Assembly: GCA_030063045.1 (NCBI GenBank)
Contig: JAQSEB010000041.1
Coordinates: 496,001 to 560,000 of the forward strand
From: Pratylenchus scribneri
Taxonomy: Eukaryota; Nematoda; Chromadorea; Rhabditida; Pratylenchidae
Direction of reading: 5' to 3'
Length of the DNA stretch: 64,000 bases
Below the pieces are notes generated by a model, which had not been told where the DNA came from, ran no database searches, and saw nothing but the letters and a program-made list of their open reading frames with translations. Of this stretch, positions 12,601-36,600 are shown piece by piece. Both the position numbers and the translations under genes were made by a program. The number at the start of each line of letters is the position of its first letter. Within the stretch, counting starts at the first letter, position 1.

Positions 12601-15600
12601 TAATTTTTCATTTTTTGATTTTTTTTTTAAATTAATTTATTACATAGGTTGGATAGCCTAGTGGTAAAGTGGTTTGGTTAGGTAGCCAAGGCTAGGAGGG
12701 GTTCGATCCCGGGTAGCGGAAAATAATTTCTTTATTTTCTAATTTATTTTATTTTTAGTTTTTTGGCTGATATAAACTTAAAGTTTTGACCCAACAATTT
12801 TTTATTTATCAGATTTGATGACCTATATTTTAATTATTTTGGCACTTCTTGAGGGAAATTTCAATTTAAAAATGCAATTTATGTGTATCAAATTTGATGA
12901 GAAAAGCCGAAAAATGTGTTTTTGAGCATTCATTTCATGTTTTTAGCCTAATTTTTGATCTATTTTTGCAATTTTTTAGGTGAAAATTTCATTAGAAAAA
13001 TACATTAAAAAAGCAAAAATTTCCCATTTTTATGTTCCCCGATATCTATATGGCAAATTTCACAAAAAAAACCCCCATAAATAGGACGACCTATTTTGCG
13101 ATTGTGTCCCCAAAAATCCAACCCCAATGATAACTAAAAAGAACAAAATACTAATTTGGGGACGGACCTGTTCCTCTTCCTTCAACTCATCCACAATTTC
13201 GCGCAATTTGAAGGCAACATTTGTGACACTCAAATTTTGTAAATGCTCAAAAATTTGATCATTCAGTTGAATTTCTTTCATTTCCTTTGTGGCGGCGGTT
13301 AATTGTTTACTTTGACTGCTGCTGCTTTGCTGCTCTTCGCTTGACTCAACGACTTCCTCCAATTCATCCAATGGCACTTTTATGATGCCTATGGAATGTC
13401 ATAAAATTAATATGGGATGAATAAATATTTTAAAATAGCAGCTACTTATATTTTTTAATCGCGAAATAAAATTGTGAAGTACATAAAATAGAGCCCAAAC
13501 CTTTCCCCTTTCAAATTAATCCCATTCAAAATTCACCCTCCTACCCAATCCCAATTCTTTCCCTTCCCTTATAATCCCAACCTCCCATTTTCCTTTCCAA
13601 TCAATATTATAAATAAAATTTATCAAAACGAAATGTAAAAGTTTACAAAAAATTGTATGAATTGTATTTTATAAAAATAAAATTGTTTGTATTTTATAAA
13701 AATAAGATTGGTGAATTTTGCCAGCTTGAAAATGTTCTGCCGCTCAATTTATTGGCATGGAATATTCGATAATAAAAATGACGGCTGCACAGCATTTTCC
13801 TTTAAAATTTATAAATAATTAAATTTCTATTTTATGAAAAAAACCTTTTCAACGGCTTAAGCCGATGAGGAAGAAGAGGTTGATGGTCATCAACAACACA
13901 ATAATGACCAAAAGAGCCACAAAGTGGCGTTCTATTTTGAATTAAAAATATAATTTAAATTTACAAAAAAACCTTTCCAAAGGGCAATGCCCAATTGTTC
14001 ATGTCCATGTCCACCGCCTCCATTTTGTTGGCCATCTTCCTCTCCTCCTTCAACATCATTTCCTCCTCCAGCTTGCAAATAATTTCCCATATTTTGGTCG
14101 ATTTGTTGAAAAAAAATTTTAATTGAGATTTGTTTTTGCTAAAAATTGAAAGTTTATATTATGAAATTATTGATTAATGCGTTTATAAAATAAAATTATG
14201 TGAATGATTGGAATGATTGATATATGGAATGAAGATTATGAGGTGGTGAATGCATTTGATTTCATAATAATGATATTGATGGAAAGTAAAAAAGTAAGAA
14301 TACATTATGCCAAAAATTTAATTTTTAAATAAATTTGCAAATAACCTTTCGTTTTCGTAACATTATTAGTTTCAATTTTCTACAATATCTATAACCAAAA
14401 TATCTAAAAACAAAATAATTAAAAACAAAATATCTATAATCAAATTACTACATATGAAATATCTATAACCGAAATATCTATAACCAAAATATCTAAAAAC
14501 AAAATAACTAAAAACAAAATATCTATAATCAAAATATCTATAACAAAAATATCTATTACTAAAATATCTATATTCAAAAATATTTAATCTCTATAAAAAT
14601 ATATATATAATTAAAATATCTATAACCAAAATACATATACATTTATTCAAATTTAAAAATTCATTCTAAAATTATTTAAAAATGTCTTCAGAAAATAATT
14701 TTAATAAAAAATACGAAAGATTTGGAATTATACACAAGGGATATAGATATTTATATAAATGTCTAGTTTACAATCCCAGAGAGTGGATAAGGACAGATCA
14801 ATATGAAAGATGGAATTGCGATTTAGCCGATGCGGCTTACAAATGCAAAGCATATATCATAAGAGATGATTGGAATGTTGATGAAGATAAAATTAGAGCT
14901 TATGGAAAACATGAACATGCTCTTATTGAAGCATGGGAACCATATTATGGTTTACTCTATGATTGGCAAGATGATAACGATCAATATCCTCATCTAGATT
15001 TTGATTGGGGGGATATTCCAGATATCCCCGAAGACGATTGTGATCATTTCCCTCATCCTGATTGTGTTTATTTGGATGAAGATGACTTTTCTATCAACGA
15101 CATTCCAGAAATTCCTGAAGATAATTCTATGCATTTTCCTCTTTCCTCATCTTGATTGTGTTTGCTCGGATGAATATTGATTCGACAAAAACGCGTATAA
15201 ATATCGGAGTTTTTTGTTTAAATCATTTATAAATCATTTAAAATTTTAAAAATCAAAAATGTCTTTGCCTACATTAACTTCTCAAATTCTACCGGAAATC
15301 GATTTCAATATCCTTTCAACTGGAATTACTATTAATTCTAATGAACGACTTTCTACTCCTCGCTTCATTCCTTACGATCAATGTGGTCGTTGTAGGGAAT
15401 GTAAAGCAACTGAAGTGGAATTGGATTTTATCGTGACTAAGGATGGAGTGACAGTTTATTGTAGTCGAATTAAAGGACCAAAATTTGTTGCATTTGATAA
15501 TACATATGAACTTCCAGGTTACTGTTTCTTTCGGATTAAAAATAAAGGACGTGTTTTCAATATCCCACATGGAGAAATGCCACCTCCAAAAAATATGCAA

Positions 15601-18600
15601 CCTAATATTCCACCTTACTCAAATATTCCTCCTCCAAATATGATTTCAAAACCGGACTTTGAACAATTTCTTGGGCATTTGAATGCTATGAGATATCCAA
15701 TGAATTCACAAATCCAAAAACCAAATAAAGAAACTAATGAAAATGAAGATATAAAAATCATTGAAGAATTTCTTAAACCAGACATCCCATTAAATCAATC
15801 ATTATAAATATATTTATTATTTTCATTCTATATTTTTAAAATGTTTGATCAACATTTATTTGAAGATAAAGATTTAAAATTCAAATTACCATTTGGAATG
15901 ATAGTTTCTGGCCCTACATCTAGTGGAAAAAGTAGCTTTCTTCTAAAGTTTATTACCGAATCGGATGAGCTCATTGACCCAAAACCAGCATCAGTACTTT
16001 ATTGCTATGGTGAAATGAATCAATTAATACCAATTTTTCAAAAAGCTGGTGTTGGTATCTATTCTGGTGTTCCACCAGAAGAGATAATAAAACAGCAACC
16101 AAAACCTTTATTACTTATTCTTGATGATTTATTACTTTCTACACCAGAGGCTTATCTCTCATCTCTGTTTACGGCTAAAAGTCATCATCAAAATTTTGGT
16201 ATAATTTTTGTAACCCAAAACCTATTCGAGAAGAAGATCAAAGTTGCTAGACAGAATGCTCAGTATTTGGTATTGATGCGTTCGCCTAATTCGGCTCTAT
16301 CTATAAGGAATATTGGTGTACAACTATTTCCGAAACAGCTCGATTACTTTTTGGATGCCTACAAACAGGCGACAAAAGAACGATATGGTTATTTGCTTAT
16401 TGATATGCATGCTTCTTCTGATTCATTATTGCGTTTAAGAACAAATATATTTAAACGAGACGAAGAAAAAATTATATTCATTCCAAAAAATGGTTCATAA
16501 AAATTGTTGTCAAATTAATCCAATTATTTGTGAGAATAAAGATTTTTTAAAAAAATTATCCAAAACAAAATCATCTATTAAACGACATAAATTATTAAAA
16601 AATGCTACAAAAGAGCAATTATTGGCAATTGCAGAGATTTCATTAAACATTGTAAAATCTCGTTTTCCTTTGACAAAATGTCAAAAACAAAAACTTATAC
16701 CATATGCAAATATTGTTCGTCAAATGAGTAGACTGAGAAGCCAAAAGGGTGCAAAGAAATTAATTATACAAAAAGGTGGTGGAGCAGCCGGATTATTCTC
16801 ATCACTTTTAACTCCCATTCTTTTAGAATTGGCCAAATCATTATATATAAAAGATAAAGTTTAAATCATTTTTTAAAAAATGGCAAATAAATTTATTCTA
16901 TTACCTGATGAAATTTATCGAGGATTAACTTCTTTTAGTGATAGTGGTGACATAAACTTAGATTTTACAAAAAATCTACTTGAAAATACTAAGAGACAAA
17001 AAATTTCAAATTCTGCCAAAAATGTAAATTATAATCAAGAATTACGTCGCTATCTTTTTCTAAGAAATGAAAAAGAACATAAACCTATTAATGTCGCTGT
17101 TAGTAATGCCGATGCACTTTCAGGAGCATTATTCAATGAATCAATTGTACCCCAACCAAAAATTGAAGTTTCGAATACTCAAGAACATCCGCCTCCTCCT
17201 TCAACCCCTTCGAACAGAAGGAGAATAACTAAAATTAAACGAACCAGAAATACACCTCAAAATAATACGGAAGGAAATGTTTCAAATTTTAATGAGAATA
17301 ATGATAATTCCTTAAACAATAATGAATCTACAAATAATAATCCGGAAGAAAGAAATGATGTGGATGATGTTTTTGTGGAACAAAAAGATGAAGAACCAAT
17401 GCATAAAGGAGGAATTAAAAGAAAACCAGAAACGGATGAATTTCATCCTAGAATGTGGCCTTTGAAAAAACAATCGATTGAAATTGAACCCGTTTTTAGA
17501 GAATCCACTAAAAAACAATATGAAACAAAAAGAAAGAAGGGAAAACAAATTGAAATTATACAAAGACATGAAAAACCTATAGAAACTGAAAATGATGATG
17601 AATTTGGTGATTCTCCTCCACCTTCACCTCTATTACCTTTATCGTTACCGCTTCCAAGTCGAGAACAATTGGCTATATTGGATACTCCTTCCACAAAAGA
17701 TAAACTAAATTCAAAGGCCTTGGTAAAGAAGAATAAAAATAGAGTAACCGCATACCCTAAGGAAACGTCAGAGAGAAAGAAGATTGTCAAATCAAATAGA
17801 CAAAAGGGCACTGTATCATTGCTTTCTCGTCCATCCGTAATAAGAAATTATCATAAAATCAATGAAGAATTGGAAGGTCCATCAACTAAATCAGCATTAC
17901 CTTCATCCTCAGTTCAATTAGCTTTGGAAGCCCCATTACCTGAGTCTAGACCCCAAACATCTATGGAGTTGTATGGAAGACCCGGGGTAAAATATAGACG
18001 AGATCCGGATTTGATTGAAGTAGTTACTACGGGCGTAAGGAAAGAGAGGAAGAGAAAACCATTAGAAGGTGTTCCGGCCCCAGGAATAGAAAAAAAGACA
18101 CGAAGAGGAAAACCAGAAAGAGCTGAAGTTGGAATGAGAGTTAAACGAAATTGGGCATCCAGGAAGCCGACCCAAGATGAAATTGATTCAGTATTATATT
18201 CTACGAGTAGAAGACTTCCTAAAATGACAAATAAAGAAAGATTGGAAGCATTACAAAAGAGAGTTGCAAAATATAAAAATCAAGATTAATTATAATATAT
18301 ATTCATATTGTAATCATTATTAATTTTATTAAAATGGATAAAATTTTGAAAAATATTTACAATAATCCTTCAAATCCTGCCGGTTTTGCTGGCCAAGATT
18401 CATTGCTTAGGGAAGCGCAAAAAGAGAATCCTAATATTAAAAAAGAGGATGTAGAACACTTTTTGCAGGGTCATCGTACATATACTCTTATGCGACCTAG
18501 GAGAATACATTTTCCTAGAGTTAAGACAATTGCTTCTGGTTTTATGACCCATGTTCAAGTGGATTTAGCTGATATGCAAGCTTTGGCCAAGGATAATCAA

Positions 18601-21600
18601 GGAAATCGATACATGTTAGTTGGAATTGATGTACTTTCAAAAAGAGTATTTGCCGTTCCACTTAAAACTAAAAAAGCCGAGGATATGGTTAAAGCATTTG
18701 AAGAACTGATTAAACAAATGCCGATGAAACCTATGGTTATCTATTCAGATTTGGGAACGGAATTCAAAAACCGTCTAATGAATAATTGGTTTAAAAATGA
18801 GGATATTCAAAAGTATGAAGCAAGTTCCACTTATCAAAAAGCTGCAGTAGCGGAAAGAGCTATCCAAAATTTAAAACAACGCCTTTATAGATATTTTGCT
18901 GAAAAACAAACCCAAAAATGGATAGATGTTCTACCGAAAATCGTTAATGCAATCAATCTTTCAAAAAGTAGAGTGCATGGGATGAGACCTGTAGATGTCA
19001 ATTTTAAGAATGCTCAACGAGTATGGAAGAAAATTTATGGAAATGCATTGAGTATAAAAAATGATAAACCAAAAATAAAATTCAAAGAGGGTGATTTTGT
19101 AAGAATGAGTCGAGGCAAAGGTAAATTTGAGAAAGGATATTATACAAACTGGGGAGACGAAATATTGGAGATTGATAAAATCAAGAAGAATTCTAAACCT
19201 GTCGTGTATAAGGTTAAAGATGAGAAAGGCGAACCGTTCAAGGAAAATTTCTATGCGGAAGAATTATCGAAAGTACGGAAAGATGAAGAGACATCTTATA
19301 GAATTCAAGAAATTTTGAAAACGAAAAAGAGAAGAGATGGAACCATGGACTATTTAGTAAAGTTTATTGGCTATTCAGAACCAGAATGGATACATCAATC
19401 TCAGCTAGTTGGAATAGATACATAAATCAGAATTGATATAAATATATTCATTTTATTTTTTCAAATTCATTTGTAAAATTTTAATTGAATAAAAACTTTA
19501 AAAATGTCAAACAGTTTCTTTGTTTATGTTCCCAGCAATATTAAAGATTATCCCGATAATACATCAAATAAATTTCGAATGCGTCTACCCAAGCCATTAA
19601 AATTTAATGGAGATTGGGTATGCGGATTACATAGTATAAGTTTTCCTTATAGCTGGCATTCAACTATTGGAACTCTTGATGACCAAGCAATTTTTATTCA
19701 TTATAAAGATGATAAAGGAAAAAATTATACACTTAGGATACCCGTTCCATCTTCCTCCAATAATTCCGTGGAAGATTTACATGATTTTCTAAAAGCAACA
19801 CTTAAATATCAAAGTCAAGCATTAGAATCAATTAGAAAAGGATTCATTGATTCGCCAACAATTACTAGTTCGGTCCGTAAAAGAAGGAATGTTGAGAATA
19901 TGGAACAAACCAGTGAAGAATTATTGAATTATATAATTACATTTTTCCATGAACATCCCGATGACTATTGGGATGTAATTAATGATAAGAAAAATGAGAT
20001 AGAAGAAATGGAAAAGGAATTAAAAGAAAAAGCTGATGAATATAAAAATATAAGCAATGAAAATATAACTGAAAAACAAAGACTTTGGCATAAAATGCAA
20101 CAGCAAATGAGAAGTTCCCGTGAAATGAAAGCTAAAATTGAAAAATTGGAAGAAGAAGCAAAAAGGAGAGACGATTCAACTGAAGAGAATAATAAAATTA
20201 TTGTCGAACAATTTTTACAAGTCTTTCCCACAAATTACTGGGAAAAGATTGGAGAAGAACGAATTCGCTTGGTAGATTATTATACAAAAATAAAAGAAAA
20301 TTTGGAAAGGTATAGAGATGCAAAAGAACCTAAGGAAATTCAAGAAATCGCACATGCATTGAACAGATTGAGAGTAAAACAAAGACATTTACGTAATAAT
20401 TTGAATGTTATTATGAAAGGAATTATTGAGAAGGAACAACAAAAAACTAAAGAAGAATACGAAAAAGATAATTGGGAACGAAACTCAGCATATGTGAATG
20501 ACTTTTTTATAAAAAATCCTATTAATTATTGGGATGCTATAAATAAAAAATTACAAGAACTGCAAAAATCATATATAGAACTTAGAGAAAAAAGGGAAAT
20601 TTTGAATTTGGAAACAGATGAAGAAAGAAAAAAACAATTGACTAATGAAATCAATCAGCTCTCTGGATTGATTGCTTATCGCCGAAATCGATTCTCCGCA
20701 TTAGAATATGAAGGTAAAAGAAGAGATGAAGAAAATTATAAAAAAGAATATGAACAAATGAAATTATTGGGGCAGATTGGTTTTTACAGTGTCCTTGGTG
20801 AAGCATTGACTCCTACCCCAGAAATCCCGGAAGCTCAAGCTCGAAAAGGAAATTTTATGCAAAATACCTTTGGATTCCGTCCAAGAAATAAAGAAAATGA
20901 TTTTATGCAAAAAGGATTTGGTATAAGACCGAAAGAGAAAGTAGAAGAAAATAAAAATGATAAACAAGAAGCGGAGAATAAAGATGAAGAGACAATACCA
21001 AAAACCTTGCCCAATGATGATTCCACGAATGTGAATGAAAATAAACATGAACAAGAAGAGAGAGAGGAAACATTTAGCGAGAATAGAAATGATATGGAAA
21101 CCCAGACAATACATACAGATGAGGAGAAACCATTTATGCAAAAAGTATTTGGATTCCGCCCAAGAGACAGAAATAGGGATATAATCGCATCGATGGGACT
21201 TGGTAAACGAGATAAGAATAAGGATGTGATGCAAGTATTTTTTGGACCTCAATGGAAAAATGATAATATAAATGTGTCCTATGCTAAACAATTAATCGAT
21301 TCACTTGAAATCATCTATCATACAGAATTTGAACGTTTTATGGTAACCTTTGACAATCCTAACATAACACATATCTCTTTCACCCATCAGCTTGGTTATG
21401 TATTAGGTTTTGAAAATGTAAATTTGGTGAAAAACGGTGAAATCGCAAAATATGTTACAGATCTTCGCGACAATTTGGCGTAGATGGTTGGCCATCTAAA
21501 TCAGGAAATTTGACAATTTCTGGTGCATTCCAATCATAGTCCTTGACAAAGATAGAGCGCGGATTCTCATGCTCAACATAAAATTTCTTCCATTTATGGT

Positions 21601-24600
21601 GTATTGTAAATAATGTATAATCGGGTATGTCATGACATCTTTCTGAAAAAGGTATGTCTTGGCATGTATCAATTCGAGAACAAAATACTATAATTCCGCG
21701 ACAATTAATTGAGAAAGACAATTCAATATCCTGGATAGAATCTTCCTCCAAATTGTATGGTAAAAAACGTGAAGAATCACCAAAACGATGACTCCTTATT
21801 GAAATTCCATTGTTTAATATAAAAAATTCAGCATAAGGAGGAAAATCTTTAGAGAATATTAACATTTTAAAAATGACAAAATCTATGAAATTCTTCCTTT
21901 ATATACTCCTCCCGTGGCGGCGGCGGCGGTGGCGGCGGCAGTGGCGGCGGCGGCGGCAATGGCGGTGGAGGGGCAAGGGGTTATGAAACACCTGACTTCT
22001 TTTGATTATCGTTAAAATTATGAAATTTTTGGAATTTTTTAAAATTTCGTAACTGCTGTCTCCCTAATGACTGACGTCACTGATTACGTCATTTGTGATG
22101 TCATTAAAAATGACATCACTAATTACGTCATTAATGACGTCATCAAAAATGCGTACCAAATTACGTCAATGATGACGTCATCAAAAATGCGTACCAAATT
22201 ACGTCAATGATGACGTCATCAAAAAAATGACGTCAATAATTACGTTATAAATGACGTCATAAAAAATGCGTAAAAAATTACGGCAATGATGACGTCATCA
22301 AAAAAAATGACGTCAATAATTACGTTATAAATGACGTCATAAAAAATGCGTAACAAATTACGTCAATGATGACGTCATCAAAAAAATGACGTCAATAATT
22401 ACGTTATAAATGACGTCATAAAAAATGCGTAACAAATTACGTCAACGATGGCGTAATCAAAAATGACGTCAATAATTACGTTATAAATGACGTCATAAAA
22501 AATGCGTAACAAATTACGTCAACGATGGCGTAATCAAAAATGACGTCACTAATTATATCATTTATGACGTAATAAAAATTTCTTAATTTTATGTACTCCT
22601 TTTTTTTTAAATTATTAATTACGGATTAAATATTTATAATTATATTGAAAAGAAATTAACAAATATTAACTTCATTTGTATTTTGAATTAATCCATGTTG
22701 ATCGATAATTTTTTGGCTGCTCGATTGAATGTAGTGTTTCTTCAAAAAATTTTTTCATATTTGGGTTCCTCTTCTTTTCCTTTCGAATTTTACAGGGCCA
22801 TTTAACAATGATTTGATCGACAAAATTTTTAAGATACTCGGTACGCTGAGCATCTTTTTGTCGTTGTTGGCCGGCAGTTCTTTGAACTTTAGGAAGCCAA
22901 TGGTCGTCATTTCTAAAGCATTTCACGCATCCGTGTATGTCACATCCGTTGATTTCTATTATAATTTTTTCCGTTCGCCCATCCTTGGTTGTTTGTTCAT
23001 AATACCCGTCAACAGAAAATCGGCCAATTCTTTTTTCACCCTCTTTGGAATAAAATGCCTGGATTTCAGTTTTATTTAATTTCTCTAGCCATCTCAAATA
23101 TTGGTAGGCAATTATTGACTGCTGCCCATTTATTCGAATCATGATTGAGGAATATTTCGGACACAAAAATTTTTAAAACTGAGCTCAAGAATGTCGGAAA
23201 GCTGATTATATACTCTAAAAATGGGCGTGGTCCAATTCATACAACCAATTAACGACAAGCATTTAGATACAGCTGTAATAACGAAAAATTTTATCAAGTA
23301 AAAGGGTGAAAATTTCTAAAAATAGGAATAATTAATCATTCATAAAATATATAGGAATAAATGAATATTTTTTTATCATATTTTATCCATTTTTCATCTA
23401 TTCCTTTTCAAGCTTTTCCACAAACTTCTTTGGTGTAGCTGGTGCCATTAAATTGGTCATCCAGCAATTTACACGAACACAACGAGGGCAAAGATGAATT
23501 TTTACATCCACACCATTGTTGTTTCGAACCCATTTTTCAGTAGAATGGAACAGTTTGTATTGACAACTTCCACAAAGACGAAACATTAAGACCGTTTTAC
23601 CTTTGAATAGTTTCCACATTTGTTTCTCCTCAGTTGGTTCCAATTTGCGTTGCAAATCTGTAATAGGTACTGCTTCAATGTGTTGGTTAATGGAAGCAGC
23701 TGGAATATTATTCGTTTGCTCCATAGCTTGAACTTCCTCAACTTCATTTTTTGCTTGCTCGGTTTTAGTGGGAATAGGAGAACTTGGAGAACTCATTTTA
23801 TTAATTAAAAATTAAATTTTTGAAGAATGAAAATTTTTGAAAAATTTCACTCCTTTTATACTAGAGAAAACGTCAGCTGATGTCTATTTCGAAATTCCAT
23901 TCATTCCATCAAAAATTCATCTCAGTTATTGTCTATTACGAAATAATATTCTTAATTACGAAATAATATTCTTAATTACGAAATAATATTCTTAATTACG
24001 AAATAATATTCTTAATTACGAAATAATATTCATATTTAAGAAATAATATTCTTAATTACGAAATAATATTCTTAGTTACGAAATAATATTCTTAATTACG
24101 AAATAATATTCTTAATTACGAAATAATATTCTTAATTACGAAATTCCATGATTAAAATCGCGTGAGCTTGTCATTTAAGAATATAAAAAGTATTTAAATT
24201 CGTATTTTTTTTTCAAAAATTTCATTTTTTACAAAATGTATTTTATCCCATTTATGAATAATGTGTTTAAAATTTTTAAAAATAAATATTCTAATCCTAT
24301 TGAACGTCTTAATTATTATATTACGCCTACTATTTTATTAATTTTTGCTGTTTTCCTTTCTGCCAAACAGTATTTTGGGAAACCAATTCAATGTTTAATA
24401 CCAACCGAATTCAAAAATGGTTGGGATGATTATGTAGAAGATTATTGTTTTGTTCAAAATACATATATAATTGCAAATAAGGAATTATTTAGTATTGACA
24501 CCGCCCTCTTTGGAGATTTTTCAAATGAAAAGAAGGAAATAAATTATTATCAATGGGTTCCATTAATGCTAATTCTACAAGCTTTAATGTTTTATGTGCC

Positions 24601-27600
24601 CAACATAATTTGGAAGATTTGTAAACACTTTTTTAATTTGGAATTTATTATCAAGGATGTATCCAAAACTAATTTGATTCCTGAACGTTTACAGAAAATT
24701 TCAGCAAATCTTAAACAAAATTTTATTTACTCAAAATGTCTACCAATTGATTGTTCTATTACAATTGCATATGCATTTGTCAAATTGCTCTCTTTATTGA
24801 ATTTATTATTACAATTTGCCCTGCTTATGCTATTTATTGGACAGAACTATATCTTTTGGGGTTTGTCTGCAATAAAAATGATTTTGTTTGGAAATGGATG
24901 GGTCGATTCCCCAATGTTTCCTCGTGTTACGCTTTGTGATTTCAATGTTTATAGATTGGCTGCTGATCATCACTATACAGTTCAATGTGTTTTAATGATT
25001 AATATGTTTAATGAGAAAATTTACTTATTTTTATGGTACTGGTTTTTCTTATTACTCACTGGATCTTTAATTGATATCCTATTTTGCATTTATAATTCAA
25101 TAATGGCACCACTTTTATGGAAAAAGAGACTACAAAAAATATATGGTGAATCATATTTAACACTGGATGGCTTATTCATCTTAAAAATGATTGAACAAGA
25201 GATGAATGGTGGTGAAAAAACCATTAAGTTAATTAGAGAAATATAAAGATATAATAATTAATTTATTAATTGTATGTCGTAAAAAAGTATAAATACTTGA
25301 AAAATTTTCATTTTAAATCATTCTGAATCATTTTTAAAAATTAAAAATGGTTCTTCTAACAGATGAATGTTCCCGTCTTCTAAATTGTAATGTAAAATCA
25401 ATACGTGATAAAATTAATCATCCTTCAAATCAAGCTATCTTACATCAAGCCCTAATTGGTCGGAAAGCTCAAACTACATATTCCGATCGTTATGGGATGA
25501 AGAAAACAATTATAATAGGAGGTATTACAACAAAAGGCGCTGATAATATTCCAGCATATGGTCGACTTTCAAGACCATTCAATATATGTGTTACTGCATA
25601 TTTTTTTTGTCGGCATGGAATTAAACTTCACCATCCATTTCATCCCTGTTTGATTGAAATTTATCCAAGAGGAGAGAATCGATACTATCCGCTTGAATTG
25701 ATGGAATTAATTGAAGAAAAACACGAGCTAAAAACCTTATTACCAAATTCTAATTATTCAAAAAAATATCTCGGAAAAATGTTCACTACAATTGAGGATA
25801 AAGAAAGCGAAAACAATGATTCAGATGAAGAAAGCTGGAGAGCATGCTGTAGTCAAGATACATGGTAACGATACACACATACCTCTTGTTCATATATGCA
25901 TATTCCCTTTATTTTATTAAAATTTTTCAAATTATTTTACTAATATCTTTAAAAAATAAATAAATTTTTATTAAAATTGTTAGTTTTCTTCCTTAAATTT
26001 TATAATTTATCATCTTATATTTTTCAAATAAAAACTTTATTTACAATTAATACGTATAGCCATAATCAAGAACAGTGAAATCAGAAGGTCTTACAATTCC
26101 TTTCGCAACGAAAGGCTTATAGATTTTAGTAAGAGGAATAGAATATACAATTCCTTTTTTAACATTAGGACGTAAAAAATTGGGGTAAAGAATAGGTATT
26201 TCAGGGGGTATTCCAGTATTTGCGAACTGTAGAACACTTTTCTTGAATGTCTCAAAGCGAAGACCCTGCTCGCTTAATACATTTTGATTCAATGTCATTC
26301 CGCGAATTTTTAGTACATATTCGAATTCAGCGAACGGTTTATTTTTAGCTTGTAATTTTATTGCGTATTGTTTGGCACCTCCACTTACATATTCGAGAAT
26401 ATTATGGTTTGGATATTCGTCGGTCAATCCACCAAGGTGGGGCGAAGTTTTTAGTGGATTTTTATCTTCCGGATGGACATAAATGACCGAGTCTGTGTCG
26501 GTATAGAGAAGCCGACATCCAGAGGAACGGACAATTTTTTGCATTAATTTCAATAAATGTAAACGAGCGCAACTGGTTGTCCAAAGTGATATGACCACAT
26601 TGGAAGATTCATGAGCTTCTGTCCATTCCTTTTTATCCAAATAAGTGATCATAATTACATCCTTTGACAATTCATCTATATCTGTGACATCAATTTTCCG
26701 GTTATCTAGATGTTGCCGAAGAACATAGGGATCATCTGTGATAATAGTTTGAGCCAATCCATAATTTCTTAAGCCAAATCGACCCCAAAGAGCATTTAGA
26801 AGCATTTTATCTGTCTCTCGAAGCCCTTTATTTGGGATCATCTTTTTGCGATCTAGTTCAATACCAAACTTTTCTTTAGTCTCTCTAATGAATTGATCTT
26901 CGGCCATTGTATTCCCTTTAATGTTTGAATCAAAACCGGATGCATGAAATTTACCTGCCAAATAAATACGCATGTATTCTCGAAATAATTCCTTGTCCTC
27001 TTTTTCATATATAATTGCCCGATAGAATTTGCTCACTACATAACCATTCTTTAGTGCCTCATTCAATTCCACAGAAGTACACGTGCTAACCCATCCGCGT
27101 TGCCTATCTGTATGTTTGCATTCATAATCTTCTTTAACACCTCCATGAGGGTATTCTTTGGCGCATTTTGAACACAAAGGAAATAATAGACGGGCATCAT
27201 CTTTTTTATCCAATTTCATTGGTAAAATTGGAACATCAATTTTACGAGGAGGAGTAATAAAAACTTTGAGAATGGCCAACGGATACGGATTATGTTCTGG
27301 CTTGTTCCACCTTACATCCTTTGGGCCATTTGGTGGAATAAACACTTTGGGAATGCCAACTGGATATCCACGAAGACACATTTCTTCATGCATAAAATTA
27401 GTATATGGATAGAGACTTGTGACATCATAATAGCTGATTTTCTCTCCTAATTTTGGTTTATAATATAATGATACAGGTCCAGTCCTTCCTCCAAAAAAGC
27501 AACTCCTTATGTCAATTGGTCCTTCATCTAAATATTCATCAAATTTCTTTTTCATTTCATTGTCCCTCTCTAACATTTGATCAACTTGGCATCCCCAGTA

Positions 27601-30600
27601 AACTTCGACTTGATATCCCTGCTTTCTAAAATATTCTAATCTTGTATTATCTTTCTGACGATGCCATCCAGCTGTTTTTCCGGTGATCATTTTCTCCTGT
27701 TCATCGGGAAAGCAATGGGGACACCCATGGTATTGGCATCCATTAAATTCAATAATTTTATTTTCGCTATCAATAAACCCATCAACTTGATATGTGCCAA
27801 TTTTCTTCTCCCCTCCCCTTGAATGTGCATGTTGGATTTCTACATTGTGAAATTCGCCATACCACTTTAAAAATTTCATTCCAATTGTGCTCTGTTTTTC
27901 GGCCTTATCATATCCTCTATCAGTCACCATTGCCAAATGATTCTCTTTTAAATGGTTCATTCTAAATAATTTCATGCATGCCGAAGCAATGGTCATTGAT
28001 TGTCGTAGAGGATCAATACCAGCATGTGGTTCGGAATATATCTTTTTGAATCCAAATCGTTTCTTTACTCTTTTGCTTCTAGACATAAAACTTTCACGAA
28101 ATGCCACCAATGCTGCCATAAGTATATCAACATCGTTCAAACAATAACTGGCCAACGCTTCATCCAAGAAAAATCCATCGTTATAATGCTCATCATACCA
28201 TTTGTCAAATGCCTTTCTTTTAGCTGGCATAAAACCTTTGTAAAGATAATCCTCTTTAGGTGGGAGTGTTTTCATTTTCCTTCCATAGTTGTCTGTTCGA
28301 TTGGCAAGGTATGGAAAATAAGGTTTGTCTTGTACATCTAAATCAAACATTGGAACAAGCGTAGCAAGTGGTCTGCTAAGCAGATTGAAGCTGTCCCAAA
28401 ATTTAAGTTCTGAGTATTCTCCCTCTTTTGCTTCAATTAATAATTCATAAAGTTTATTTCCTCTTTTTGTCATTCGTGGATTAATTCTTCTCTTGTAAAG
28501 TTCCCGACAAATAAACATAAAATCAAATCGGCCACCATTATGCGCAAAAGCATGTGTTTTATATTTTTCCGGTAAATCATTCAAAAGCCAATTTACAAAT
28601 GATTCTATTGGATCAATAGTTTCAAAATGATAATCAACACTTGTCTCTTTAAATGGCCGATGGCCGAATGTTACAGTTCTATTTTTGCCACATATTTCAC
28701 AGTCATAACTGCCTTGCATATCCCTTTTCCATTCTTCATTTCTTATGCATTTTGGACATGAAACTTTTGCTGCAATGAAATTAACTTTATGTTGTCGTCG
28801 ATTATCATTAGGAGTTTTAATGTCCATTGGGTGATTTTGAGTTGTTTCAAAATCAAATGCGACAATTCGATATGCTTTTTGTTTCCAAGGTTCTAGAGGA
28901 GTGATGAAACATCCATCTTCTTTATTATGCCAGATTCTACATTTATTGCACCAAGTTTCATCACATTCATGTCCTTCTTTCCCATTCTCTAAATATACTT
29001 TTTTATTCCATATAACTCCACATTTTTCGCATTTCTTTGATACATCACAAAATACAGTATCTTTATGATGTTGAAAGCATAATCGATTCTTGAAGATTTT
29101 ATTGCATTCTGTACATTTTTGATGGAAGCCATCTAGTTTTAAACATGGTAGAGAATGGTCCATTTTTGAACATAGCTGGCAACGCGAACGACAATACATT
29201 GAATGATTGCTTGGGGAATTATAGGTAGATTCACATGATAAGCAATATGATTGATGAAATAATCCATATGGTTTTTTAACAGCATCAAAATGTTTCTGTT
29301 CACTATTATGGTAAAGAATAATTGGTATCGTATAATTTTCTGGACCATATTTGAATTTTGGTTGATAATGTCCGAGATGTCCAAATATAAATAATTTAAA
29401 GCGATATCGACCAGCGAATTCCCTGTTAAAATGATCTATTATAATTGGACCATAGATACAAGCATCGTATTCTCTCAATGATGGATCAATGTTAAGTTTA
29501 TGCATTAAATCCCAAGTATCTGCTTTCCATTTTCCACTTCTTTTTACATAATCTGATTTTTGCCATTTACTATATCCACGTGTATTTCTTGCCACAATCG
29601 CTTGTATTGCATAGAATAAGCAATAAGCATCTTTGTTTTCTACTTTTATTAAGGCTTTTTCCCTGATCATATGATGAACTTGTTTTAATTTTCGTTTGCC
29701 GCCACCAATTATTTGTTGGGTGGTTGGTAATCTACTACGATCAACATTGTAAATTTTGATACTGAATGGCTCACCCCATAGTGTTAAACCTTGTTGTTTT
29801 TTTGATTGCGCAACTTTTAGAAATTCATTGAGTACAACATCAATTGTATTTTCTGTATATGGTCGGTAAGGAAGATAAATATGTGGATCAAGTAGAGTAC
29901 TGCGTATAGTAATTGCCATCAAATCCGGCTCAATTCCATTTTTTTGTGCTTCTTTTCTCGATTCATTTAAGCAATAGTCAAATATTCCACCCAATAAAGT
30001 TTCTGGGTCATTGGGGATATCAACAATTTGGAAATGGGAATCGTATTGAGATAAAGAAAATTTTTGGTTAAATGTTGATACTCCATCTAACTTTTGAATA
30101 TATTGCTCCAAAGCATGCGTTTTTTTATGGTGAATAACTTCATTGTATACAAATGAAGGCGGGGGAGTCAATGCTCTATGAAGACGAATTCGCTTAATTG
30201 GGGGAGAATTTGAACGCGTATGTAAACGCTTCATTGTATTTTGAATTTAGTTGAAAATTGGAAAAATGAAAGGAGAAAAATTTTAAAAATGAAAAATCCA
30301 TTTCTTTTATACTCATTTTAATAACTATCATGCGATAATTACTTAAAATTCGTGAGTTATTACATTTAATATTATGAAATTTCATAAAATTACGAAATTT
30401 CATTAAAAATGTTAGTTGCTGTTTTTGATATTACAAATTCCATAGAGAGTCAGCTGTTTCGAAATAATTTCAAGCCTATATAAATCGAAGAAAAAGTTAA
30501 ATTTTTTCATTTATCTGATAAAATTTCAAATTTTCCTCTCATTATTTAAAAAATGGCAAGCCGTCAAAAGGAATATATTCGTATCCTCGGTGAAATTGTA

Positions 30601-33600
30601 TCCTATCTTGTCATAACAGAGGATGTTCAATTAAAGGAAGAACAAAAAAATAATGAGGATTCGCTCCTAGATTTTATCCAATCTCTAGAACAAATTATAC
30701 CCAAATATCCGGATATTCCAAATCCATACATGATAGCCAAAAAAATGAATAAACAAGCCGGTAATGATTTTATCCGTTATCTCTTCGATTTAAATATTTG
30801 CGTGCTTGATCCGCCTGTGCATAAAGAATATGATTTTCCACTAGAAAAATTACAACTTTTCTTTAAGAATATGTCTCATTTGCACAAAAGGACGGAAATT
30901 TTTCCAATAAAATTAATGCCAGATGATCTCTATATGTTGCTCATTATCATCGCCGCAGGAGCAGCATATTTAAACCATTCAATGGAACTAAAACTTGAAC
31001 GATATGTCCAACAACTAGAAATTGGATCGGTGAAGGAAAAGAACGAAGATAAATTGAATGATAAGGAATGATATTTTTGATTAATAAATATTTCATAATA
31101 AAATTCCAATTCTTTCTATTTTTAGATTTTTTATATTTTTAGATATTTTTTTATATTTATAATTTTTTATTATTAGATATTTTATATTTATAATTTTATT
31201 AGAAATTTTTAATTTTTATTTTTTCGCTTTATATTTTTCAATTAGTAGTTATTTTTGATATAAATTATTAATAATTTTTATTACTGAAATAAATTGAAAG
31301 GTGGGCCATCATCAGTACAATGCCTTTCAAAATATTTCCTTAAATTTCTGTTGTTTCGGCCCTTTAAATTGTATACAACACTCACAAACCACAACAAATT
31401 CTATTTAAATTTAGACAATTATTTTATAATTAGACATTTTTTCTAGGCATTTTTTCTATATATTAGACTATTTTATATTTAGTCTATATATATATATTAG
31501 ACTATTTTATATTTATTCTTTATATTAGACTATTTTATATTTATTCTATATTTAGATATTTTTGTATATATATACTTCTTTCTATTTATTCTATATTTGG
31601 ACAATTTTGTATGATTAAAACGAATATAAGAATGTTCGGCTAGAATAATAATTTGGTGAGGTATGCAATGTTCGGCTACAATAATAATTTGATGAGGTGT
31701 GGTGAGGTATATAATAATAATTGGTGAGGTATATGATAATAATTGTTGTGGTGAGGTATATATCTTTTGGTGAGGTATATGATAATAATAATAATTGGTG
31801 AGGTATATGATAATAATTGTTGTGGTGAGGTATATATCTTTTGGTGAGGTATATGATAATAATAATAATGGTTGTGGTGAGAAATGTATTTTTGATTAAT
31901 ATGTTTTTGGTTAAAATGTGTTTTGACTATAATTTTTTGATTAATAAGTTTTTGATTAAAATGTGTTTTGAGTATAATGTATTTTTTGATTAATATGTTT
32001 TTGATTAAAATATATTTTTGATTAAAATGTGTTTTGAGTATAATGTATTTTTTGATTAATATGTTTTTGATTAAATATGTTTTTGATTAAAATGTGTTTT
32101 GAGTATAATGTATTTTTTGATTAATATGTTTTTAATTAAATATGTTTTTGATTAAAATGTGTTTTGAGTATAATGTATTTTTTGATTAATATGTTTTTGA
32201 TTAAAATATATTTTTGATTAAAATGTGTTTTGAGTATAATGTATTATTTGATTAATATGTTTTTGATTAGATATGTTTTTGATTAAAATGTGTTTTGAGT
32301 ATAATGTATTTTTGATTAATATGTTTTTGATTAATTGTGTTTTTGGTAATAATGTGTTTTTGATTAAATGTTTTTACATGCCAGCAAGGCGAATTGGAAA
32401 GCAGTCTTGTTCGCTGTCAATAGTTCTTTTACAGACCGCACATTGGGGAATTTTTGATTCAAAAAGATTGTTATTAAGACAATTAAAGCAGCTATAAGCG
32501 TGGGAGCAGGATAAAACCACATTCACACTTTCTTCAAGACAAAAAATACATCTTGTTCCCTGTAATTGCCCTTCTTCAGTTCCCAAGTCATATTGAACTT
32601 TTGCAGCAGCCTCTCTTGCTATTCTGCATTTATTAATTGCATTGCGTTCCATTTTGATTGCAAATTCTTTATTATTTTGTTCTGATGCTTCTTTGGCCTT
32701 TTTTCGTGCCAGTTGTGCCTCTTTCATTGCATTCCTAGCCAAATATTGATCGCAACGCTTCTGTTAGTGCAAAACAGGTGGAATTAAATTGGGGCAAATA
32801 GGCAAAATTAAATTGGGGCAAGCAAAACAGATGGAATTAAATTGGGGCAAGCAAAACAGGCGGAATTAAATTGGGGCAATCAAAACAGGCGGAATTAAAT
32901 TGGGACAAACAAAACAAGCGGAATTAAATTGGGGCAATCAAAACAGGCGGAATTAAATTGGGGCAAGCAAAACAGATGGAATTAATTTGGGGCAAGCAAA
33001 ACAGGCGGAATTAAATTGGGGCAATCAAAACAGGCGGAAAATTGTGGCAATCAAAATAGGCGGAATTAAAATGGGACAAACAAAACAGGCGGAATTAAAT
33101 TGGGGCAATCAAAATAGGCGGAATTATATTGTGGCAAGTAAAACAGGCGGAATTAAATTGGGGCAAGCAAACCAGGCGGAATTAAATTGGGTCAAACAAA
33201 ACAGGCGGAATTAAATTGGGACAAGCAAAATAGGCGGATTAATTCACAAATCAGAAGAAATGAAATTACCTTCCAGAAAGTAGGGGGCCATTTTCGGCGA
33301 TTGATCGCTGAGAGTTGTGAAATTGCGAAGTTTGCACGCTTGTGTTCGCGGTAGCCAAATTGTAAGACAATCTCTTTTGCTATGTTTTGTTCCTTGATTT
33401 TTTCTTCTAATGCCACATTCTTTTCTCCCTCTCTTATAAACTTAAGAAAGTTCAAAATTCAAAATATTATAATTAATAATTTACTGCTTCTTGCGCATTC
33501 TTTAGATCGAGTATTAATCTGGAATTTTCTCGCAACGTTTGGCCATACACATGCTTTAATATTGCGATTTCGATGCGAAAGTTAGCTAAAGAATGCATGA

Positions 33601-36600
33601 AAACTAATCTGGGTTTAGAAAAAAATACCTATTTCTTGTGCTTTTGTTGTTAAGGGCATTTTATGATTTAGTAAAAAGTAATGAGGATTGGTAAAAAAGT
33701 TTGAATTTTGAAATGATGGTATATGAAGAGTTTGGGAAGACTTATATATAGTGGTTATAAGGATGTTTGGAATGATACATAACATTCCATGCACGCCCAT
33801 TTTCATTATAATTTATTCCATTAGTTTTTATGTTATTGGCAAAAATGTTCCATCAAATCATTTTCATAATCATATATTCCATTCGTTTTTATGGAATTGG
33901 CAACATACACGCCATTTTCATAATCATTTATTTCATTCGTTTTTATAGGATTGCCAACATACGCGCCATTTTCATAATCATTTATTCCATTCGTTTTTAT
34001 GGAATTGGCAACATACACGCCATTTTCATAATCATTTATTTCATTCGTTTTTATAGGATTGCCAACATACGCGCCATTTTCATAATCATTTATTCCATTC
34101 GTTTTTATGGGATTGACAACATACACGCCATTTTCATAATCATTTATTTCATTCGTTTTTATGGGATTGACATCAAAATGATGGCCACTCTTGTATTAAT
34201 CTATCCAAACATCAAAAATCATATTTTTATGTTTTGTAAACACTCAATTTTTGGCAAAAATTTATTATATTAATTGATTCGGAGTTGGGAAAGTTGGGAA
34301 TGGAAATTGATTGGGAGAGGATTATATTAATTGATTCGGAGTTGGGAAAGTTGGGAATGGAAATTGATTGGGAGAGGAAAGGTTTGGGCTCTATTTTGTG
34401 TACTTCACAATTTTATTTCGCGATTAAAAAATATAAGTAGCTGCTTAAAATATTTGAACTCAAAAAATTTTTTGAAAATTTTCGACCCAAAAATTTTTGA
34501 AAATTTTCTCAAAAAAATTTTTTGAAAATTTTCGACCTAAATTTTCGGCCCAAGTGAAAATTTTGGACTTAAAATTTTTTGAAAATTTTCAATCCTAAAA
34601 ATTTTGAAAATTTTCCGAAAATTTTTGACCTAAAAATTTTGCGAAAAATTTGGACCTAAAAATTTTTTTAAAATTTTCGAACCAAAAAATTTTTAAAATT
34701 TTCGAACCAAAAAATTTTTAAAATTTTCGAACCAAAATTTTCAATCGAAAATTTTTGTCTCAAAAAATTTTTTTTGGAGCCGTGGCTGGTCACAATTCAA
34801 GGCTTAATTTCCTCTAAAATTCCCGTTACTTACCTCTTGAATCAATGCCAAAGAATTCATCCAATGCACCGGCAAATGTGAACTGTTTCATCATTGGGCA
34901 CAGGGGGTCAATCCATCGATCGATAATTACCACATTTTTGATGCTATGAAAATCATCGCCCACGCCGCTTTGCAATGTTTCTGCCGTTTTCAATTCCAAC
35001 TTTAATTAAAATAAATTGGAAAATTTTAAAAATTTATAAAAAAAGGGCATTGAAATTATCGAAAAATGAGTACATAACGCCAAAATAATTATAACGGTTT
35101 AAAGAAGGGTTTATCCCACACATTCACAAACCAAATATAGAATATACCCAAATTTGGATAGAGCTGGCCAAGACGCATTGAATGGTAGTATATAATTTGA
35201 TTATGGTTTGGTCAACAATTAATGGATTTTAAACGGTTTAATCCAATTTTGGTTTTTAAGCGGTTTAAATCGATTTAGTTTTTTGGTTCAAAGCTAAGTT
35301 AGAATTGGTTAAATCTAAACCAAAACATATCGAATGAAGCATTCTGATTAGTTCTATCAATTGAATATAAGATTATGGCTTATGAGTCTAGGATAAACCA
35401 CTGAACTGTACAAAATGAAATTACAATCTTTTCAGCAATTTAAGTGTTTTTTTGGATGTCAATTTTTTTTATCTGCTATTTCAATTCTTTTTATCTGCAA
35501 GGTTTTTTCTCCTTTTCTTTTCCCTTCTTCATGTTTATCTCTCATCCCCTTTGCTCTGTTGCTTACATAAACGGTTCCAGGGGTGCGCGGAAGTCAAAGA
35601 AGGTGCGCGGGATATCCGGATATATGGGGATTAAGGAGGATTAAGAGGGATTAAGCCGGATAAAGCCCCGAATTTGTTGGGAAATGGCCCGTAGGGCCAG
35701 AGGAAGGTCAGGGAAGTTGGCCGAAGGCCCTGAGACTGGGCAGGATATAGCCGGATATAAGGGGATATACGTGGATTAAGGGGGATTAAGCCCTGAAATG
35801 GATATGGAATGCCCCGGAAGTCCATGGGAACGTCGGGGAAGTGTAACAGAGGCCTGGAGACTGCGCGAGATTAAGCCGGATATAAGGGGATATACGTGGA
35901 TTAAGGGGGATTAAGCCGGATTAAGCCCCGAAATGGATGGGCGTGAGTCTTGGTTTGGCTGTTTGCTTCCGGCTTCACGTGAATCCCATTCTCCGAACCC
36001 CTAACCCTAATCCCTAGCCCCTAAGTAAGCTTAATCCGGCTTAATCCACCTTTATCCACCTTAATCCCCCTATATCTGGCTATATCCCGCATGCTCCGAA
36101 CCCTTAAGCCCCTAGCCTCTAGATCCCATGCCGCCCTAACCATAACCCTAATCCCTAGCCCCTAACTAAGCTTAATCCGGCTTAATCCCCCTATATCCAC
36201 CTTAATCCCCCTATATCCAGTTTAATCTCGCGCAATCTCCGGGGCTCTGTTACATTTGACCTTCCAGTGGCCTTCCTGGCCATTTCTCATCCATTTCGAG
36301 GCTTAATCCCCCTTAATCCTCCTTAATCCACGTATATCCCCTTATATCCGGCTTAATCTCGCGCAGTCTCCAGGCCTCTGTTACACTTCCCCGACGTTCC
36401 CATGGACTTCCGGGGCATTCCATATCCATTTCAGGGCTTAATCCCCCTTAATCCACGTATATCCCCTTATATCCGGCTATATCCTGCCCAGTCTCAGGGC
36501 CTTCGGCCAACTTCCCTGACCTTCCTCTGGCCCTACGGGCCATTTCCCAACAAATTCGGGGCTTTATCCGGCTTAATCCCTCTTAATCCTCCTTAATCCC

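Follow-up and report, generated by a model that had tools for sequence, protein, structure and literature searches.

A free PAZ domain encoded by a Polinton/Maverick element of the nematode Pratylenchus scribneri, a candidate suppressor of host RNA silencing

A Polinton/Maverick element of the nematode Pratylenchus scribneri, located in a 64,000-nucleotide stretch of DNA (hereafter the window; contig JAQSEB010000041.1, positions 496,001 to 560,000, assembly GCA_030063045.1), carries a gene that encodes a free PAZ domain. The PAZ protein may suppress host silencing by small-RNA sequestration, by docking on Argonaute or by both, a reading based on sequence and predicted structure for which belief and doubt are about balanced. 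The first-pass annotation of this DNA had described the gene as a PAZ-like domain lacking MID and PIWI, carried by a virus-like element, and had proposed it as a decoy for RNA interference; the three descriptive parts of that claim were borne out by the evidence presented below. The survival of DNA transposons in animals that possess small-RNA silencing is an open question and, to our knowledge, few suppressors of silencing are known to be encoded by transposons of animals. The features of the gene are the following.

25347..25868, + strand: PAZ-only gene, 173 amino acids (open reading frame, Pfam PAZ, fold match to AGO2 PAZ)
25347..25721, + strand: PAZ domain proper, residues 1-125, equivalent to AGO2 227-350 (fold alignment)
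25722..25865, + strand: tail formed by residues 126-173, acidic and probably disordered, containing RACCSQ (predicted local distance difference test (pLDDT), tail statistics, sequence)
25863-25865, + strand: codon of the C-terminal Trp

Pfam PAZ (PF02170) matches the window protein with an E-value of 3.4e-9 and 37.2 bits (cut-off 28.8), and it is the only Pfam domain in the 173-residue open reading frame (ORF), which consequently does not have the PAZ, MID and PIWI combination of an Argonaute protein. The predicted structure matches the AGO2 PAZ fold across the whole domain, and the PAZ profile is found at E<=0.01 in all 20 members of set A1. Residues 125-168 and 170-173 have pLDDT values below 50. 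An exon of a host Argonaute gene was considered and ruled out, since the ORF sits between an innexin gene and a DNA polymerase B gene inside the terminal inverted repeats (TIRs) of the element. The element itself is delimited by the TIRs and a 6-bp target-site duplication (TSD), and the Polinton gene set (polymerase B, rve integrase and packaging ATPase) is present, the integrase and the ATPase being barely over the cut-off.

13437..34445, no strand: Polinton/Maverick carrying the PAZ gene (inverted repeats and TSD)
13437-13538 and 34344-34445: inverted repeats of the element, beginning AGCAGCTACTTATA
13431-13436 and 34446-34451: target-site duplication TAAAAT
26047..30234, - strand: DNA polymerase B, viral/organellar type, 1395 amino acids (DNA_pol_B_2, E 6.5e-35)
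18334..19425, + strand: retroviral-type integrase (rve, E 4e-8, 33.9 bits, cut-off 32.6)
15841..16500, + strand: packaging-type ATPase (Adeno_IVa2 over the cut-off, Pox_A32 below it)

The element was mobilized recently: copies on contigs C2 (locus L055) and C64 encode an identical PAZ protein, have the same TIR end and sit in different flanks with duplications of their own (GTTGAA and TCTCTC). For every piece compared, identity to the window copy is 99.8-100% within the longest block that could be aligned.

At least 150 matches to the window PAZ protein occur in the P. scribneri genome, with an internal stop in three of the best 101, and the ATPase query also gives at least 150 matches. The search for the gene in other Polintons that the first-pass annotation had proposed was rewarded, as a PAZ match lies within 30 kb of 106 of the 150 listed ATPase loci, while 5.3% of the genome is that close. 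When the ATPase loci are divided by rank at a point chosen after the list was seen, PAZ is found within this distance in 98 of the 107 best loci versus 8 of the 43 others; an ATPase match, in turn, lies within 30 kb of 90 of the 101 best PAZ matches, of three of the 49 at ranks 102-150 and of none of the 21 places with a host-Argonaute-like PAZ. These counts include 150 ATPase places, 150 PAZ places and 69 of the 138 places of another search, picked by eye as absent from those 150 PAZ places (one of the 69, C237, is a duplicate).

Twenty-six sibling loci were examined, a non-random set composed of 20 near the top of the PAZ matches (L009-L028) and six lower ones (L058-L063), and at least one gene for polymerase, major capsid protein (MCP)-like protein, protease, ATPase or integrase occurs within the fetched stretch of 22 of them. 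PAZ identity tracks polymerase identity (Spearman 0.78, p 0.004; 11 loci with a polymerase alignment of more than 300 columns), a covariation expected from long co-inheritance. Locus L017 has just a weak match (29% identity) to p132, a 132-residue protein of the window element, and no listed ATPase match within 30 kb. A distant PAZ subfamily (L058, L059 and L060) shows 33-36% identity and long tails; none of the proteins of the window or L055 was found within about 2.5 kb of these three genes, though all three have an ATPase match at a distance of no more than 30 kb. Loci L058 and L060 have three neighbors in common, none of them over the Pfam cut-off; IPW...YSKP characterizes the first, a short protein, the second ends in ITFRFR, and the third has a YFGRLLAE/RYGRMLAE stretch. 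In a further group of Polinton ATPase loci of about 50% identity (C40, C15, C20, C31, C78 and C200), the PAZ match is even more divergent and sits some 8 kb from the ATPase, the open frames being about 126 amino acids long.

Outside this genome, a profile search retrieved 82 proteins, 81 of them besides the window's own, the named sources being Meloidogyne hapla, M. incognita, M. enterolobii, M. graminicola, Globodera rostochiensis, Globodera pallida and Heterodera schachtii; the database names of these relatives are "PAZ domain-containing", "uncharacterized", "hypothetical" and "unnamed". Viral contigs searched for relatives gave 37 pattern stretches, none of which was confirmed.

The relation of the family to host Argonautes was addressed with an unrooted tree of 78 columns and 47 rows (12 host, 35 element or public), for which the host set comprised Argonaute PAZ exons of the same genome (among L033-L048) of classes B-F and ALG. 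All element and public sequences form one clade (SH-aLRT 99.9, bootstrap 100). It is separated from ALG and from human AGO with a support of 97.5/100, and a split of 86.6/96 that also leaves out D places it together with classes B, C, E and F; inner support is weak (47-66 by SH-aLRT, 57-84 by bootstrap). The worm-specific host classes are here called WAGO-like, a label that we adopt on the grounds of divergence; one class-B host gene has Piwi pieces below the Pfam cut-off, and one class-C gene has a linker-2 piece. Scores of the family profile against host PAZ are 34 bits for class B, 32-33 for C, F and ALG, 27-29 for human AGO1/2 and 10-21 for D and E. When the window protein alone is compared with host PAZ, the best score is with class D (21.8), followed by ALG (19.5), class B reaching 13.8-16.9, contrary to a WAGO-like donor. 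Since the family scores low with most host classes, and to much the same degree, the capture is probably old; the same scores ruled out a single recent acquisition from a host gene of today. The simplest reading of these sequence relations would be a single old capture from a worm-specific (WAGO-like) Argonaute. The comparison with worm Argonautes suggested by the first-pass annotation as a way to find the donor thus succeeded in part, placing the family on the WAGO-like side and not with AGO/ALG, but 78 columns with weak inner support do not allow a donor gene to be named.

The PAZ family is under purifying selection, as seen in deep pairs: most of the pairs that have diverged further show a ratio of nonsynonymous to synonymous substitutions (dN/dS, NG86) of 0.14-0.41, with other values in some close ones (window-L009, 1.10, the L009 tail being frame-shifted; L011-L012, 0.61; L013-L015, 0.05). 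The pocket that receives the guide 3' end was compared by aligning 102 family proteins to AGO2, whose pocket residues were drawn from three publications (PMC4504477, PMC5896489, PMC5389725). In these, the guide contacts of AGO2 include H271, F294 and H316 (PMC4504477), and H271, R315, H316, Y311, K335, T337 and Y338 are named (PMC5896489). The position of H271 is Y in 100/102 proteins (conservation rank 2 of 124 positions), that of F294 is Y/F in 101/102 (rank 17), that of H316 is H in 100/102 (rank 11) and that of L339 is Y/F in 101/102 (rank 15). The maintenance of these positions is consistent with a decoy that would still hold small-RNA 3' ends, though other positions, described below, are altered.

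The C-terminal tails were compared in 94 of the 102 proteins, the remaining eight, five of which end in W, being left out for lack of a PAZ-end motif. They are divergent and acidic (26% D+E), and 55 of the 94 end in W, compared with a mean of 2.3 and a maximum of 9 in 2000 shuffles; a G precedes the terminal W in 23 of these 55. Among the public members, 54/81 end in W. Clustering of the tails by 4-mers gave 45 groups, in 28 of which at least half of the members are W-ending. Inspection by eye of 19 further ORFs, from the element and from its C2 sibling, revealed no terminal W in any; one of these ORFs is a shortened version of another. The loose motif RxxxSQ/TQ occurs in 38/94 tails versus 0.8 by shuffling. 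It is the relaxed version of a second tail motif, roughly [GW]RxxCSQ, observed 0 to about 11 residues ahead of the terminal Trp. A sequence context like that of Argonaute hooks is present, namely a Trp in a probably disordered acidic/Ser-rich tail, and this resemblance suggests that the protein may have a second, protein-binding half. The first-pass annotation had not noticed the Trp tail. WG/GW motifs constitute such a hook in P1 of sweet potato mild mottle virus (SPMMV), a plant-virus suppressor that binds AGO1 through them (PMC2904775).

Taken in order, the proposed events would begin with an ancient single capture by which the PAZ of a worm (WAGO-like) Argonaute entered nematode Polintons. 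The free PAZ would grip the 3' ends of host small RNAs and, in the W-ending lineages, the acidic tail would dock in the Trp pockets of the PIWI domain of a host Argonaute. A protein docked in this way would sit on the silencing complex and block guide anchoring or partner binding, with the net effect that the element would be locally protected from RNA silencing. A more specific version is put forward tentatively and seems to us rather doubtful: a bipartite clamp, in which the stolen PAZ would take the guide 3' end while the GW-like C-terminal hook holds the PIWI of the same Argonaute, would have been invented by animal virus-like transposons, and the Polintons of root-knot and cyst nematodes would have maintained and diversified it.

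Several observations weigh against suppression by sequestration and docking. In the pocket, the position of K335 is E in 89/102 proteins, a charge reversal, that of R277 is K in 79/102 and that of Y311 is H in 86/102 (H is also present in two of three class-B host rows), and these changes imply that the ligand preference may differ. Loci L058 and L060 fall under the Pfam PAZ cut-off (21.1 and 23.3 bits versus 28.8). Related tails are non-independent observations, and the terminal Trp may bind a partner other than Argonaute. The hook is not universal either, as 39/94 tails lack the terminal W: it is missing in 15 of the 20 ORFs of L009-L028 (two of them frame-shifted or truncated), including those of L016-L028, while the more distant L060 and L061 possess it.

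Alternatively, the PAZ protein might act in replication or packaging of the element itself, by binding displaced single-stranded DNA or element RNA at the 3' end, or as a virion component, with no role in silencing. Such a function, which we regard as unlikely although a serious competitor, agrees with the near-core location of the gene, which at many loci has genes for polymerase, MCP-like protein and protease within a few kb, with the covariation of PAZ and polymerase identities, and with the existence of a PAZ complex with deoxynucleotide overhangs (1si2). It fits less well with the Argonaute derivation of the domain, with the BFVD viral structures, none of which matches the window model at E<=0.001, and with the lower-ranked ATPase loci, from which some Polintons appear to manage without PAZ given that, among the matches listed, just the eight of 43 mentioned above have it nearby. 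Licensing is another alternative, by which the protein would recruit or mimic a protective CSR-1-type Argonaute, and the host would then take the transcripts of the element for its own. One account of Meloidogyne reports amplified CSR-1-like Argonautes and PRG-1 as not found (PMC5934874), a setting in which licensing, like suppression, could operate, and a terminal-Trp tail would tether the protein to Argonaute with no need for inhibition; the tree, with its weak inner support, does not identify a CSR-1-type gene as the donor, and we consider licensing improbable.

That the gene is a decaying or passenger fragment, or belongs to a host family merely located near Polintons, is disfavored to the point of being very improbable. 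Some matches do have stop codons, the L009 tail is changed and L014 has a stop after the PAZ part, but the scarcity of internal stops among the best matches, the low dN/dS of the more diverged pairs, the nearly invariant pocket positions and the placement of the gene within an element that has moved recently, between its inverted repeats, all argue against this reading. Suppression of host silencing by sequestration, docking or both is retained as the preferred, though evenly balanced, interpretation.

The remaining features of the element concern the vicinity of the PAZ gene and the block that separates the window copy from its sibling.

24236..25246, + strand: innexin, single open frame, adjoining the PAZ gene (Innexin, E 6e-82)
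23398..23796, - strand: 132-residue protein (p132), no function assigned (tblastn)
21464..22568, no strand: right edge of the gap relative to the C2 sibling (L055) (coordinate and sequence comparison)

The innexin gene, which is intact and encodes a gap-junction protein, is located beside PAZ only in the closer PAZ subgroup (7/26 loci, L009-L015; 51-100% identity) and is reminiscent of the vinnexins of polydnaviruses. Of the 26 sibling loci, 21 have a p132 match by tblastn in the vicinity of PAZ. Polinton polymerase B is protein-primed, and a chromodomain in the integrase ORF stayed below the Pfam cut-off (E 0.33). Judged by coordinates, the block present in the C2 copy and missing from the window copy has a length of about 4.2 kb, and the part devoid of long matches amounts to at least 3.9 kb (the comparison lists long matches, and additional short ones are possible). 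It contains ORFs for a 449-residue MCP-like protein, proteins of 171 and 144 residues and a C5/C48-type protease (Peptidase_C5/C48, E 7.3e-5 and 1.5e-4). The 449-residue ORF, which in our assumption is like a Polinton MCP and has no Pfam support, has matches in 10 of the 20 loci L009-L028. The capsid-like and protease genes are absent from the window copy, in which PAZ, innexin and polymerase are retained. A separate fragment (22672-23166, - strand) looks like an internal portion of the polymerase, with 30-39% identity to this gene at several sibling loci, and similar fragments occur in L009, L011 and L012 (near-identical or 69%). Near the right end, within the element, lies a RING-finger ORF (32374-32742, - strand; zf-C3HC4_3, E 1.2e-6), presumably similar to IAP-type RING.

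In this case, an abundant Polinton lineage has, as a near-core gene under purifying selection, a piece of the silencing machinery itself; with relatives in several genera of plant-parasitic nematodes, the question of transposon survival can be reduced to one small domain and one short tail. In addition, annotators should be aware that, for Meloidogyne, Globodera and Heterodera, many of the entries named "PAZ domain-containing" may belong to elements and not be host Argonautes. A full-text literature search, judged by titles and the starts of abstracts and hence short of establishing absence from print, turned up no account of Polintons that carry a PAZ gene, nor, within the same scope, an innexin. 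In their available portions, accounts of the Argonautes of these worms mention no Polinton PAZ gene (PMC5934874, PMC4901422), and a report of three Mavericks in M. graminicola mentions no PAZ gene (PMC7593179).

Compared with known systems, the window element resembles other nematode Polintons/Mavericks in carrying a host-derived gene within a TIR-bounded element with a 6-bp TSD. The published Caenorhabditis cargo reportedly belongs to other families. SPMMV P1 shares with the PAZ protein a Trp, often as GW, in an acidic/Ser-rich context, but comes from a plant virus and has several internal motifs where the PAZ protein has a single Trp at its end, and we know of no PAZ domain in it. Worm WAGO-like Argonautes fall on the same side of the tree and have F at the position of Y279 and F/Y at that of L339 (classes B, C, E and F); their PAZ stretches are interrupted by stops and lie in genes with Piwi/Argonaute-linker pieces, whereas the Polinton copies consist of a single open frame with one domain. 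With the PAZ of human AGO1/AGO2 the family shares the whole-domain fold, aromatic or His residues at several 3'-end pocket positions and conserved P, C, P and E, at about 19% identity; it differs in having no N, MID or PIWI domain, in the E that mostly replaces K335 and in features of its own, AYGRL, a nearly invariant N79 and an acidic tail that often ends in Trp.
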